Shown one piece after another: positions 55,791 to 64,000 of a stretch of DNA of 64,000 nucleotides; the stretch's first letter is position 1; each line of letters begins with the position of its first letter. Both the position numbers and the translations under genes were made by a program. Source of the DNA: Halogeometricum rufum (GTDB taxonomy: Archaea; Halobacteriota; Halobacteria; Halobacteriales; Haloferacaceae); contig NZ_FOYT01000005.1 in the NCBI RefSeq assembly GCF_900112175.1, forward strand, positions 186,001-250,000, written 5' to 3'. The notes beneath the pieces are model-generated. The model saw only the letters and a list, made by a program, of their open reading frames with translations, made no database searches and was not told where the DNA came from.

Positions 55791-57506
55791 ATGGGATACG
55801 TTGTCAAGATGCCGAAGCTCGGGATGGACATGGATCAGGGAACGGTCGTCGAGTGGTTCGTCGAGGAGGGCGGCGAGGTGACGGACGGCGAGGTGGTGGC
55901 CGAAATCGAATCGGAGAAGACGACGGGTGAGGTGCGCGTCCGACAGGACGGCGTCCTCCACCACCGACTCCTCGCGGAGGGAGAGGGTACGGGCCCCGGC
56001 GGCGCCGTCGCCATCGTCGGCGACGCCGACGAGGACGTGTCGGACCTCCTCGCGGAGGCGACGGGCGGCGCGGCGGCGGCCGAGGCGGACGAGTCCGCAG
56101 GCGAGGCGACGAGTGGCGAGGAGACGACAGCGTCGGCGGCGACCGCGGGCGATACGACCGGCGAGTCCGGCGGCGGCGCGACGGCCGACGCCGGCGGTGC
56201 GACGAGCGAGTCGGTGAAGGCGACGCCGCGGGCGAAGAAGCGCGCCGACGAGTTGGGCGTCGACCTCGCGTCCGTCGACGGCACCGGGCCACAGGGTGCC
56301 GTCTCCGCCGACGACGTCGAGGCCGCCGCTGAGAGCGGGGGTGCGGCCGGCGGTGACGCGGGCGGCGAGGCGGCGAGCGCGGAATCGAAGTCCGGGGCGA
56401 GCGAGTCGGTGAAGGCGACGCCGCGGGCGAAGAAGCGCGCCGACGAGTTGGGCGTCGACCTCGCGTCCGTCGACGGCACCGGCCCGCAGGGAGCCGTCTC
56501 CGCCGACGACGTCGAGGCCGCCGCGGAGAGCGGGGGCGCGGCGGAAGCGACCGCCGCCGACGCGGACGGCGAAACCGCGGCGACCGGTGCGGCGGCCGAG
56601 GCGGAGAGCGGACGCGCCGAACACGTGTTCGCGCCGCCGCGCGTCCGGCGTCTCGCCCGCGAACTCGACGTCGACATCGCCGCCGTCGAAGGTACCGGCG
56701 GCGACGGGCAGGTGACCGAGGCGGACGTACGGGCGTTCGCGGAGGGGGCGGGCGGTGCCGCCGAAGCCGGGGCGGGCGACGGCCAGACGGCCGCCGAGCG
56801 CGTCGGCACCCGCGACGAGGAGCGACCGATGAAGGGGATGCGGCGCACCATCGCGTCGCGCCTCGGCGAGAGTTACCGCGAGTCCGTCCACGTGACGGTC
56901 CACCGAACGGCCGACGCGGAGGCGTTGCTCGCGGCGGCCGACGCCGCCGACGAGGGGTTGGCGCCGAAGATTTCGGTGACCGACGTGCTGTTGCTCGCCC
57001 TCTCGGCGACGCTGGACGAACACCCGGCGTTCAACGCGACGTACGAGGACGAGGTCCACCGCCTCCACGCCGAGCAGAACGTCTGCATCGCGGTGGACGT
57101 CGAGGAGGGACTCGTCGCACCCGTCGTCCGCGGCGTGTCGACGCTCTCGCTGTCCGAGTTGGCCGAGAAGCGCAGCGAGGTGACCCAGCGCGCCCTCTCC
57201 GGGGAGTTCACGATGGACGACCTCTCGGGCGGGACGTTCACCGTCTCGAACCTCGGCGTCCTCGGCGTCGAGTCGTTCGACCCGGTAATCAACCCGCCGC
57301 AGGTGGCGATTCTCGGCGTCGACACTATCGCGGAGGAAGTCGTCCCCGTCGGCGACGGCGACGTCGGCGTCAGGAAGCGAATCGGGTTCGACCTCTCGTT
57401 CGACCACCGCATCGTGGACGGTGCCGACGCGGCGCGGTTCCTCGGTTCACTGGTCGAACACGTCGAGAACCCGTGGCCGCTCGTCGTCGCCGCCGGCGGG
57501 CGCTGA
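55791..57506 (+). CDS. acoC: Dihydrolipoamide acyltransferase E2 with three subunit-binding domains
   Basis: A 571-residue E2 of a 2-oxoacid (acetoin-type) dehydrogenase complex. Residues 1-76 are a lipoyl domain with modified Lys43 in IESEKTTGE. Three peripheral-subunit-binding domains follow (~139-183, ~204-248, ~278-315), joined by Ala/Gly/Glu-rich linkers; the first two are nearly identical. The catalytic domain (~346-571) ends in SFDHRIVDGADAARF with His539 and Asp543 of the HxxxDG site. One subunit-binding domain is normal; three could alter binding of E1 or E3. E1 and AcoX genes lie 1.2 kb away on the other strand. No E3 gene is in the window. Confidence 0.88.
   Translation: MGYVVKMPKLGMDMDQGTVVEWFVEEGGEVTDGEVVAEIESEKTTGEVRVRQDGVLHHRLLAEGEGTGPGGAVAIVGDADEDVSDLLAEATGGAAAAEADESAGEATSGEETTASAATAGDTTGESGGGATADAGGATSESVKATPRAKKRADELGVDLASVDGTGPQGAVSADDVEAAAESGGAAGGDAGGEAASAESKSGASESVKATPRAKKRADELGVDLASVDGTGPQGAVSADDVEAAAESGGAAEATAADADGETAATGAAAEAESGRAEHVFAPPRVRRLARELDVDIAAVEGTGGDGQVTEADVRAFAEGAGGAAEAGAGDGQTAAERVGTRDEERPMKGMRRTIASRLGESYRESVHVTVHRTADAEALLAAADAADEGLAPKISVTDVLLLALSATLDEHPAFNATYEDEVHRLHAEQNVCIAVDVEEGLVAPVVRGVSTLSLSELAEKRSEVTQRALSGEFTMDDLSGGTFTVSNLGVLGVESFDPVINPPQVAILGVDTIAEEVVPVGDGDVGVRKRIGFDLSFDHRIVDGADAARFLGSLVEHVENPWPLVVAAGGR
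56204..56536. repeat. Direct 138-bp repeat encoding duplicated E2 subunit-binding domains
   Basis: DNA at 56204-56341 recurs at 56399-56536 (195-bp offset) with only a few, mostly synonymous, differences such as GGG/GGC, CCA/CCG, GGT/GGA and GCT/GCG. The copied unit encodes one complete subunit-binding domain. The in-frame 65-codon period and near identity indicate a recent internal duplication or gene conversion. Confidence 0.9.
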
Positions 57507-61797: not shown

Positions 61798-61912
61798 GGG
61801 AAAACACAATTCGACGAACCGTGAGAAATGTTTCTGATACCGGAGAAAGTACGCCGTGCGGTGAATGTGCGGAGAGAGACGACGGAGCACCGACGCGTGT
61901 AGGGAGGGGCGG

Positions 61913-61931
61913 ACACCGGGTTTCCGGTGAA
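61913..61931 (+). repeat. ORB-like repeat 1
   Basis: ACACCGGGTTTCCGGTGAA, the consensus form. CACCGG and CCGGTG are inverted arms around GTTT. Leftmost copy, pointing toward the AT-rich element. Confidence 0.85.
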
Positions 61932-62040
61932 CGAGGCGGTGCCGTCGAGGGGGAAAGACGTCGCCGACGCCGACTGGAAATCGGAGGTTGGGTGCGGGAG
62001 AACTGACAGCGGTCGTTCCGTGTCGGGGGTAGCGAGACGC

Positions 62041-62059
62041 ACACCGGATTTCCGGTGAA
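62041..62059 (+). repeat. ORB-like repeat 2
   Basis: ACACCGGATTTCCGGTGAA, one mismatch to the consensus (G to A). Same orientation as copy 1. Confidence 0.85.
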
Positions 62060-62131
62060 ATACGTTCCGGTTCCCCCCGTTCGGGGGCGTCGGTGGTGAC
62101 GGTATCGAGGGGACGAGTGTGCCGCAGAGAC

Positions 62132-62150
62132 ACACCGGGTTTCCGGTGAG
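62132..62150 (+). repeat. ORB-like repeat 3
   Basis: ACACCGGGTTTCCGGTGAG, differing from the consensus only in the last base. Same orientation. Confidence 0.85.
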
Positions 62151-62188
62151 ATTTCGCAATCGGCACGTGTGTGCGAGGAGAGGGACGC

Positions 62189-62207
62189 ACACCGGGTTTC
62201 CGGTGAA
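62189..62207 (+). repeat. ORB-like repeat 4
   Basis: Exact consensus ACACCGGGTTTCCGGTGAA, 57 bp after copy 3 and 63 bp before the iteron array. Confidence 0.85.
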
Positions 62208-62269
62208 TCGGGAAGCGAGCATCCGTCGGCGAGTGACCTCCCCGGTTCTGCGAAGGAACGACCGTGCTG

Positions 62270-62423
62270 TACCTACGGCGAGGGTGTGTCGTACCCACGG
62301 CGAGAGTGCGTCATACCCACGGCGAGAGTGCGTCATACCCACGGCGAGAGTGCGTCATACCCACGGCGAGAGTGCGTCGTACCCACGAGGAAGGTACGTT
62401 AGATCCACGACGGGGATGTGCTG
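62270..62423. repeat. 22-bp iteron-like tandem array
   Basis: Seven consecutive 22-bp units start at 62270, 62292, 62314, 62336, 62358, 62380 and 62402. Units 2-4 are identical (TACCCACGGCGAGAGTGCGT then CA), unit 5 differs in the last base, units 1 and 6 are diverged, unit 7 is barely recognisable. The 22-bp period is about two helical turns, as in plasmid iterons that bind a replication initiator on one DNA face. It sits between ORB4 and ORB5. Confidence 0.85.
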
Positions 62424-62450
62424 TGCCCCATCGAATACATCGCCGGGCGG

Positions 62451-62469
62451 ACACCCAGTTTCCGGTGAA
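62451..62469 (+). repeat. ORB-like repeat 5 (degenerate left arm)
   Basis: ACACCCAGTTTCCGGTGAA: the TTTCCGGTGAA half is intact while the left arm has two changes. Same orientation as copies 1-4. Confidence 0.75.
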
Positions 62470-62536
62470 CTCGGTCGAAAACGCCACGTAGAATGCTGTT
62501 GCCTCGGGTCCTTTCGCCCCCGTGTGAACGTCGTCC

Positions 62537-62555
62537 ACACCGGGTTTCCGGTGAA
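62537..62555 (+). repeat. ORB-like repeat 6
   Basis: Exact consensus ACACCGGGTTTCCGGTGAA, the last copy to the left of the AT-rich element (130 bp away). Confidence 0.85.
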
Positions 62556-62684
62556 AGAGCACCGACTCGTAGCTCGTCGTCGGTCCCTACCGTTCCCCGC
62601 ACTGCCGACGGCGTGTTCCGGCGTACGTTCCCTGTCCTCCTTCGAGCAATCGCGCGAGAGTATCGGACAGTGGACTCGATGTAT

Positions 62685-62730
62685 AACAACTATTAAATAG
62701 TTGTTTAGTGTAAACGTCCATTGATACACT
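62685..62730. other. AT-rich duplex-unwinding element with palindromes
   Basis: AACAACTATT, A, AATAGTTGTT (62685-62705) is a perfect 21-bp palindrome rich in A/T. A second inverted pair, AGTGTA (62707-62712) and TACACT (62725-62730), follows at once. This is the most AT-rich part of the origin and is flanked by ORB-like copies on both sides, so it is the expected site of strand opening. Confidence 0.75.
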
Positions 62731-62860
62731 CACAAGCAAGTTATCGTTCGTCACTCGAACGTGCTGCAACGGAAACGGGCCTTTCTGACGGATGGAGATG
62801 GAACGCGTCGAGAGTGCGGCGTCGTCCCGTCTCCGGTGCGGACGCACCGCTTCCGCTGTA

Positions 62861-62994
62861 CCGATACTCCCGCCCTCCGTTCGTCGATACGTCGGCTTCC
62901 TCCGTGTCGACGCACGTCTTCTGTGCCGGTGCGCGTCCTCTATGCCGATGCGCGTCCTCTATGCCGATACTCCCGCCTTCCGTTCGTCGATGCG
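62861..62994. repeat. Degenerate repeat cluster right of the unwinding element
   Basis: A 31-bp sequence starting CCGATACTCCCGCC at 62861-62891 recurs at 62964-62994 with two mismatches. Between them a 19-bp unit GCCGATGCGCGTCCTCTAT occurs at 62925-62943 (one mismatch) and 62944-62962. The cluster has no gene of its own and may be a second protein-binding array of the origin. Confidence 0.6.
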
Positions 62995-63182
62995 CGCCCT
63001 CCGTGCCGGTGCGTCGGCGTCTGCCGTGCCGGTGTGCTGGTTTCGTCGCTGTCGATACATCCGTCTCCTCTCCCCGAGGAACGTATGCAGTGGTCACCGA
63101 ACGTCTTCGTCACCATGTTTGGGTGTGGCTCGTGGCGTCCTTTACCGCTCTCGAGGCAGTTCGCCCGGCGTGTGAGCCGAAC

Positions 63183-63201
63183 ACACCGGGTTTCCGGTGA
63201 A
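63183..63201 (+). repeat. ORB-like repeat 7
   Basis: Exact consensus ACACCGGGTTTCCGGTGAA, right of the unwinding element and still in plus orientation. Confidence 0.85.
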
Positions 63202-63246
63202 CCGATACCTCCGTTTCAGCTGCACCAACCCCCCGTCGATACCGCG

Positions 63247-63265
63247 TTCACCGGAAACGTGGTGT
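63247..63265 (-). repeat. ORB-like repeat 8 (inverted)
   Basis: TTCACCGGAAACGTGGTGT, the reverse orientation, with the conserved TTTCCGGTGAA half intact on the minus strand and two changes in the other arm. Confidence 0.8.
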
Positions 63266-63294
63266 GTGTGTCGCGCGGCGAGATGGCAAACCAT

Positions 63295-63313
63295 TTCACC
63301 GGAAACACGGTGT
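63295..63313 (-). repeat. ORB-like repeat 9 (inverted), at the orc1/cdc6 start
   Basis: TTCACCGGAAACACGGTGT ends 8 bp before the orc1/cdc6 ATG at 63322. Bound initiator here would cover the gene's own transcription start, suggesting autoregulation. Confidence 0.85.
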
Positions 63314-63321
63314 CCTGTAGT

Positions 63322-64000
63322 ATGCCGAACACCAGCGACGACCTCTTCACTCGGGAGGACCCCATCTTCGCCAACAAGGAACTCCTCGAAATCAACCACC
63401 TGCCGGGGGAGGGTCGTATCGTGGGCCGCGACGACGAGATTTCCGACCTCGCGGCGGCGGTGAACCCCGCCATCTTCGGACAGAGTCCGAGCAACGTCCT
63501 CATCTACGGCAAGACGGGGACGGGAAAGTCCCTCTGCGCGAAGTACGTCTCCCAACGCCTCGTCGAGACGGCGGGCGAGGAGGACGTGAAGGCGACGTTC
63601 GCGTACGTGGACTGCGCGCAGGACACGACCGAGACGCAGGCGGTCCAGACTATCGCCGACAGCGTCAACCGGTCCGAGGTGACCGGCATCAAGGTACCCG
63701 ACAAGGGACTCAGTACCTCCACGTACTACAAGCGACTCTGGCGCATCCTCGACGCGCAGTACGACGTGGTCCTCATCATCCTCGACGAGATTGACAAACT
63801 GAGCGACGACGACATCCTCATGCAACTGTCGCGGGCGGGCGAGGCGGGGAAGATCGCCCAGTGTAAACTGGGCGTCATCGGCATCAGCAACAAGATTCAG
63901 TACAAAGATCGGATGGACGAACGGGTCAAGTCGAGTCTCTGCGAACGCGAGTTCGTCTTTCCGCCGTACGACGCGAACCAACTCCGCGACATCATGGACG
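63322..64000 (+). CDS. orc1/cdc6: Orc1/Cdc6 replication initiator (partial)
   Basis: The first ~226 residues of an AAA+ origin-binding initiator; the gene runs off the right edge. Walker A is YGKTGTGKS (62-70), Walker B IILDEIDKL (~152-160) and sensor 1 IGISNKIQY (~190). The C-terminal winged helix that contacts ORBs is beyond the window. It binds origin repeats with ATP and loads the MCM helicase. ATG 63322 follows the last ORB-like copy by 8 bp. Haloarchaea have several orc genes, each usually serving its adjacent origin, so this one should recognise the TTTCCGGTGA-type repeats here. Confidence 0.95.
   Translation, partial: MPNTSDDLFTREDPIFANKELLEINHLPGEGRIVGRDDEISDLAAAVNPAIFGQSPSNVLIYGKTGTGKSLCAKYVSQRLVETAGEEDVKATFAYVDCAQDTTETQAVQTIADSVNRSEVTGIKVPDKGLSTSTYYKRLWRILDAQYDVVLIILDEIDKLSDDDILMQLSRAGEAGKIAQCKLGVIGISNKIQYKDRMDERVKSSLCEREFVFPPYDANQLRDIMD

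Follow-up and report, generated by a model that had tools for sequence, protein, structure and literature searches.

The oriCb family of haloarchaeal replication origins was delineated in 2012 by grouping origin-associated Orc/Cdc6 proteins at approximately 80% identity or more; the members listed are origins of H. turkmenica, N. magadii and H. xanaduensis as well as those of H. volcanii orc5, H. borinquense Hbo_14700 and H. lacusprofundi Hla_1524, the latter three of which are linked to an rRNA operon (PMC3528665). The H. volcanii origin, oriC2, adjoins the rRNA operon (PMC2841640); autonomous replication or a marker-frequency peak has been shown for it, and deletion of orc5 abolishes initiation at this site (PMC6063281). 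A strong increase of the chromosome copy number in H. volcanii upon deletion of oriC2-orc5 is mentioned, with reference to earlier work, in PMC9769981. Generally, the way the initiator level is set in multi-origin, polyploid haloarchaea is poorly understood.

The region described here is located within a 64-kb stretch of DNA (hereinafter, the window) from a Halogeometricum-like haloarchaeon and is very probably an oriCb-family origin of chromosomal replication, of the H. volcanii oriC2/orc5 type. Given the oriCb membership and the orc5-dependence of H. volcanii oriC2, this is a known class of origins, the best studied member of which is active. The anatomy of the region, its family membership, the co-occurrence of the boxes with the initiator and the conservation of box positions are direct observations; they add one more member to the described family and provide a clean box consensus from 458 copies. 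In addition, the comparison yields a testable idea on initiator control. The start-codon ORB, the GTCCATTGA element and the recurrent solitary remote ORBs go beyond both the earlier note on this DNA and the literature searched.

The initiator gene and its genomic context

The gene that follows the box array encodes an Orc protein of 401 amino acids (P0001) and continues beyond the end of the window. The protein matches TIGR02928 (432.7 bits) and the Pfam domains Cdc6_lid and Cdc6_C, so that the array is adjacent to an orc1/cdc6 gene with AAA+ and winged-helix domains, as expected of an archaeal Orc1/Cdc6-dependent origin. The identity of this protein is 98% to H. limi, about 94% to Haloferax and 88% to Halorubrum; among the megaplasmid proteins of Natrialbales, it is 82% for Haloterrigena turkmenica pHTUR04 and 79% for pNMAG01 and pHALXA01. 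Thus, the values from 98% in Halogeometricum to 82% in pHTUR04 lie within the range used to define oriCb, and the two at 79% fall just below the threshold of approximately 80%. In the phylogenetic tree, the protein belongs to a clade with the pHTUR04, pNMAG01 and pHALXA01 proteins that is supported at 100/99; the search found no close relative from phages. The sharing of ORBs that also characterizes oriCb is apparent from TTCACCGGAAACNNGGTGT, which is common to Haloferax, Halorubrum, pHTUR04, pNMAG01 and pHALXA01. Orthology to orc5 is assigned from close Haloferax and Halogeometricum species, standing in for the H. volcanii and H. borinquense loci, and from the synteny described in the papers. 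An assignment to the orc2/oriCa family was considered as well and dropped in favor of orc5/oriCb on the strength of PMC2841640 and PMC3528665.

In Halogeometricum, Haloferax and other relatives, orc is followed by a gene for a FilR1-type regulator, a TBP gene and 16S rRNA, with the 16S gene about 2.4 kb downstream where the orc-regulator-TBP order matches; the contig analyzed here ends 2.3 kb past orc, where the rRNA would begin. The FilR1-type regulator and TBP genes themselves are present downstream of orc, ahead of where the rRNA operon is expected (L019:10717-12273, past the window end), and TBP occupies this place in every locus checked from Haloferax, Halogeometricum and Halorubrum. On the left, the origin is bordered by a 2-oxoacid dehydrogenase cluster, the E1 genes of which were not found at this place in the relatives checked. 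One ORF to the left (55791-57506) encodes a dihydrolipoamide acyltransferase-like protein that, as read from the translation, apparently contains three E3-binding-type segments in succession, two of which are nearly identical.

The similarity to H. volcanii oriC2/orc5 (HVO_1725) extends to an orthologous Orc (about 94% to the Haloferax species sampled) of 401 codons plus stop, as in the HVO_1725 coordinates, the same ORB (in Haloferax relatives), a neighborhood that, judging by the relatives, is presumably rRNA-linked as well, and the opposed arrangement of the ORBs. The Haloferax-type origins differ in the left neighbor, in the number of distal ORBs (5-7 compared to six here) and in the spacer repeats, which here comprise 22-bp and 19-bp arrays. 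The H. borinquense Hbo_14700 origin, by its description in PMC3528665, shares with the present one the genus of the closest relatives, the family and, presumably, the rRNA linkage. The plasmid oriCb origins of pHTUR04, pNMAG01 and pHALXA01 have the same Orc clade (79-82%), ORB consensus and start-codon ORB but, unlike the presumably rRNA-linked origin described here, lack this linkage and possess additional ORB clusters downstream of orc (loci L140, L141 and L142), an arrangement also seen in the titration region of H. hispanica.

The box array and the putative unwinding element

A motif scan identifies nine 19-bp boxes between positions 61913 and 63313 of the window (Table 1) and no tenth copy in the 64 kb when up to 2 mismatches are allowed. 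In 100 dinucleotide shuffles, TTTCCGGTGA occurs 0.12 times on average and at most once, compared to nine occurrences observed. Read as ACACC...TTTCCGGTGAA, the six left boxes and the one at 63183 are on the plus strand and those at 63247 and 63295 on the minus strand; read from the opposite strand, the box is TTCACCGGAAAC-NN-GGTGT. The copies, the AT-rich element that they flank, the lead into orc1/cdc6 (start at 63322) and the asymmetric orientation, with six left boxes pointing in one direction and one plus and two inverted boxes on the right, are all as reported in the earlier note. Its description of one invariant arm and one variable arm requires amendment: TTTCCGGTGA is indeed invariant in the nine copies, but so is ACACC, and only the 3-nt spacer differs (GGG, GGA, CAG, ACG, GTG).

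Table 1. Features of the origin region and remote ORBs. The strands of ORBs follow the TTCACCGGAAAC-NN-GGTGT reading; positions without a contig label refer to the window.
Feature	Position	Strand	Comment
ORB 1 (TTCACCGGAAACCCGGTGT)	61913..61931	-	distal array; 0 mismatches to family consensus
ORB 2 (TTCACCGGAAATCCGGTGT)	62041..62059	-	distal array
ORB 3 (CTCACCGGAAACCCGGTGT)	62132..62150	-	distal array; 1 mismatch
ORB 4 (TTCACCGGAAACCCGGTGT)	62189..62207	-	distal array
ORB 5 (TTCACCGGAAACTGGGTGT)	62451..62469	-	distal array
ORB 6 (TTCACCGGAAACCCGGTGT)	62537..62555	-	distal array
AT-rich putative unwinding element	62675..62724	.	GC 0.30 vs ~0.69 for the window
GTCCATTGA element bordering the unwinding element	62716..62724	+	recurs in family loci
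ORB 7, promoter-proximal	63183..63201	-	-139 from orc ATG
ORB 8, promoter-proximal, inverted	63247..63265	+	-75 from orc ATG
BRE/TATA-like promoter element of orc	63288..63297	+	AA at -34/-33, CATTT at -30 to -26; overlapped by ORB 9
ORB 9, start-codon ORB, inverted	63295..63313	+	-27 from orc ATG
orc1/cdc6 initiator gene, oriCb family (orc5 orthologue)	63322..64000	+	continues to equivalent of 64527
Perfect remote ORB	C5:41668-41685 (L191:2469)		between 3' ends of gyrA and an arginase-family gene
Perfect remote ORB	C5:182608 (L192:2509)		near Lrp/AsnC regulator and TrkA_N-DHH gene; recurs in relatives
Perfect remote ORB	C2:10845 (L132:1500)		after hutH; recurs in relatives
One-mismatch remote ORB	C2:276540-276558 (L232:3041-3059)		convergent spacer after priS-gins51-bcp; also L184, L190, L204, others

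The three boxes on the right form a promoter-proximal trio that is conserved at about -140, -75 and -27 in Halogeometricum, Haloferax and close genera (for ORB 7, the counterpart is found at -136 to -141 in most of these), and the number of distal boxes varies across the family from 0 to 7. In the 458 family boxes, the information content is 1.5-2.0 bits at all positions except the two-base spacer and 1.76-2.0 bits at those of the GGTGT arm; these values are somewhat inflated given that the scan tolerated two mismatches. Two other repeats are present in the region, namely a tandem 22-bp unit (TACCCACGGCGAGAGTGCGTCA, 5.4 copies, positions 62270-62409) inside the ORB array and degenerate 19-bp repeats (CGTCCTCTATGCCGATGCG, 62908-63037) that follow the AT-rich tract and precede the orc promoter.

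An AT-rich tract is located between opposed ORB groups in most relatives, and the local GC skew changes sign near the tract described here. The latter contains the palindrome AACTATTAAATAGTT (62688-62702), which is also found in two Halogeometricum relatives, with a related tract in Haloferax; as a family-wide element, the palindrome (AACTA-TAGTT) was rejected, being present in 3 of the 8 loci checked. The motif at the right border of the tract, the GTCCATTGA element (G[TA][TC]CA[TC]T[GA]A), follows the tract in 28 of the 73 family loci, including those of Halogeometricum, Haloferax, Halorubrum and plasmid origins, compared to none of the 73 on the opposite strand. It was dropped as a feature of other orc loci, none of those checked containing it, and no mention of it was found in the origin literature searched. 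The unwinding element of Sulfolobus oriC1 is likewise flanked by ORBs and contains a further conserved motif, ucm (PMC12141716); the likeness to the GTCCATTGA element is one of position only, and no sequence kinship is claimed.

This arrangement suggests a mechanism in which the initiator encoded by the adjacent gene, Orc5, in its ATP-bound form would bind the nine ORBs with a fixed polarity. Situated between two opposed groups, the six distal boxes to its left and the two inverted ones to its right, the AT-rich element would open and could then be loaded with MCM helicases, giving rise to bidirectional replication. Given that a member of the family can be dormant in a given species, the alternative is that Orc5 binds here and regulates its own gene while replication starts elsewhere, so that the region would be a dormant origin or just a regulatory or titration array. 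A dormant orc-adjacent origin has been documented in H. mediterranei (PMC4595724), and several further orc genes, some of them accompanied by candidate sets of boxes, are present in the genome analyzed here. Nevertheless, dormancy appears unlikely considering that the full anatomy is intact, with the opposed ORBs, the AT-rich tract and the GTCCATTGA element all in place, that the GC skew changes locally near the tract, and that the orthologous H. volcanii oriC2 is active (PMC6063281), as is the origin of the orc5 homologue in H. mediterranei, which, by the order given in PMC4595724, is oriC3-cdc6G.

Specificity of the box and its relationship to other ORBs

In a survey of 60 relatives, ACACCNNNTTTCCGGTGA is present in all 25 genomes that encode an Orc at least 79% identical to the one described here and in none of the 35 genomes lacking such a protein, including those in which the nearest Orcs are about 42-58% identical; none of the genomes has a match to the reversed pattern used as a control. 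When the set was widened to 138 genomes of the family, 100 contained ACACCNNNTTTCCGGTGA. Hence the genome-wide search that the earlier note proposed shows the box tracking Orc. The outcome held there to speak against an origin, a repeat scattered over the genome with no link to orc, did not materialize, despite three perfect and one near-perfect copies elsewhere in the genome. These solitary copies would also be expected if the boxes were sites for an unrelated transcription regulator located beside orc by chance. This possibility is extremely remote because the presence of the box matches that of Orc exactly across the 60 genomes, and in 74 loci one copy keeps a fixed orientation and spacing relative to the start codon of orc.

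The earlier note interpreted the array as an origin with a cognate initiator, belonging to an unusual and possibly new class. The first part of this interpretation is borne out by the anatomy, the synteny with an active origin and the 25/25 versus 0/35 co-occurrence, and the suggested initiator specificity gains indirect support from the lack of the box in genomes with other Orc families only (about 42-58% identity). The specificity of the box for one Orc family is what a new class, with a novel ORB and a novel initiator specificity, would predict. However, such a class is very improbable, given that oriCb has been a described family since 2012 (PMC3528665), that its H. volcanii member has been characterized experimentally and that the GGAAAC core is shared with another ORB family. 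That the core looks different is mainly due to the strand read: on the complementary strand, the box contains CGGAAAC, which is common to the ORBs of another origin in the same genome.

In the TTCACCGGAAAC-NN-GGTGT reading, the box is an ORB with a GGAAAC core. A second origin of this genome (contig C4) has AACG[AT]CGGAAACGTGGGG boxes, and similar boxes are found at other Orc families checked (two from Halogranum and Halobacterium orc4), so that GGAAAC is shared across Orc families and the preceding bases are family-specific. Two further orc loci of the genome contain repeated AACAGCGGACA and AACAGACGAAA words. The G-rich end of the box, GGTGT(G), appears weaker than the classical halophile G-string: a G follows GGTGT in 64% of 460 boxes, with no G run. 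Another origin in the same genome has GTGGGG at the ORB end. As judged from these motif comparisons, the box is a family variant of the ORB rather than a foreign element. A literature search with the literal motif returned only apparently unrelated papers among the matches listed.

The start-codon ORB and solitary remote ORBs

All 74 family loci, which share ancestry and so are not independent, contain an ORB in a fixed orientation 23-34 nt (mostly 27 to 29) before the orc start codon; at the other Orc families checked, no box is found at this position, the nearest being at about -64 or further. In H. volcanii, most transcripts are leaderless, and the motifs proposed for haloarchaea are a CGAAA BRE and a TTWT TATA box (PMC4983044); hence, the start-codon ORB probably extends over the part of orc in which the TATA-like element and the initiation region are located. 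The promoter bases AA (-34/-33) and CATTT (-30 to -26, in the spacing of the window) are conserved across 73 loci. In three Halorubrum loci (L061, L063 and L083), the other ORBs within 6 kb upstream have been lost and the one at -29 of orc is retained; these cases are compatible with the dormant-origin alternative in that a regulatory box can outlive the array. The position of this ORB over the promoter in 74/74 loci, where it outlasts the rest of the array, implies autoregulation, and autorepression of orc5 would be the simplest reading: Orc5 bound at -27 would be expected to block TBP/TFB and repress its own gene, which would tie the initiator level to the free ORBs.

The extra distal boxes and solitary remote ORBs could bind further Orc5. 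Sixty remote sites from many genomes, clustered by the neighboring genes, map mostly to a few recurrent places. The largest cluster, with 18 loci, is the spacer between priS-gins51-bcp and a convergent neighbor (often cdc48), followed by a site near the Lrp regulator (9 loci, with the box side differing between Halogeometricum and Halorubrum), the gyrA-arginase site (8 loci in the same orientation, including L173, L176, L178, L180, L214, L216 and L218), an ndk-adjacent site (4 loci, in Halorubrum-type genomes) and the site after hutH (2 loci). When priS-gins51 loci were collected by the gins51 protein, with no box required, from 30 Orc-positive and 20 Orc-negative genomes, an ORB with at most 1 mismatch, in one orientation, was present in 15 of the 30 Orc-positive genomes; the remaining 15 showed only background, with at least 5 mismatches, and the 20 Orc-negative genomes all lacked the ORB (best 4 mismatches). 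The remote boxes are more conserved than their flanks, in a comparison of loci mostly chosen for having the box. These positions argue for Orc5 binding that is maintained by selection. No report of such solitary sites was found in a literature search that covered few subscription journals.

The convergent intergenic placement at priS-gins51 and gyrA is evidence against simple promoter control and fits titration of Orc5, by analogy with datA-like or oriC2D-like sites, which hold the initiator away from the origin and restrain initiation; these ORBs might instead act locally on the ends of transcripts or serve as a minor site of loading. In Haloarcula hispanica, the oriC2-cdc6E/oriC2D region similarly contains many ORBs, for which titration has been proposed as negative control (PMC3936714); there, oriC2D is directly downstream of the gene, whereas here the extra boxes are upstream and the solitary sites far away. 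We tentatively propose, as a reading that is possible but falls somewhat short of probable, that Orc5 represses its own gene through the start-codon ORB and occupies the conserved solitary ORBs, including those at the priS-gins51-bcp and gyrA 3' ends, in a titration or regulatory network similar to that of DnaA. If so, the network of an archaeal initiator would reach replication genes hundreds of kilobases away. The universal promoter-overlapping ORB and the solitary ORBs at priS-gins51 and gyrA are precise sites to mutate. A few remote sites in one genus (clusters F, Gc and H) are located inside genes and may be incidental.
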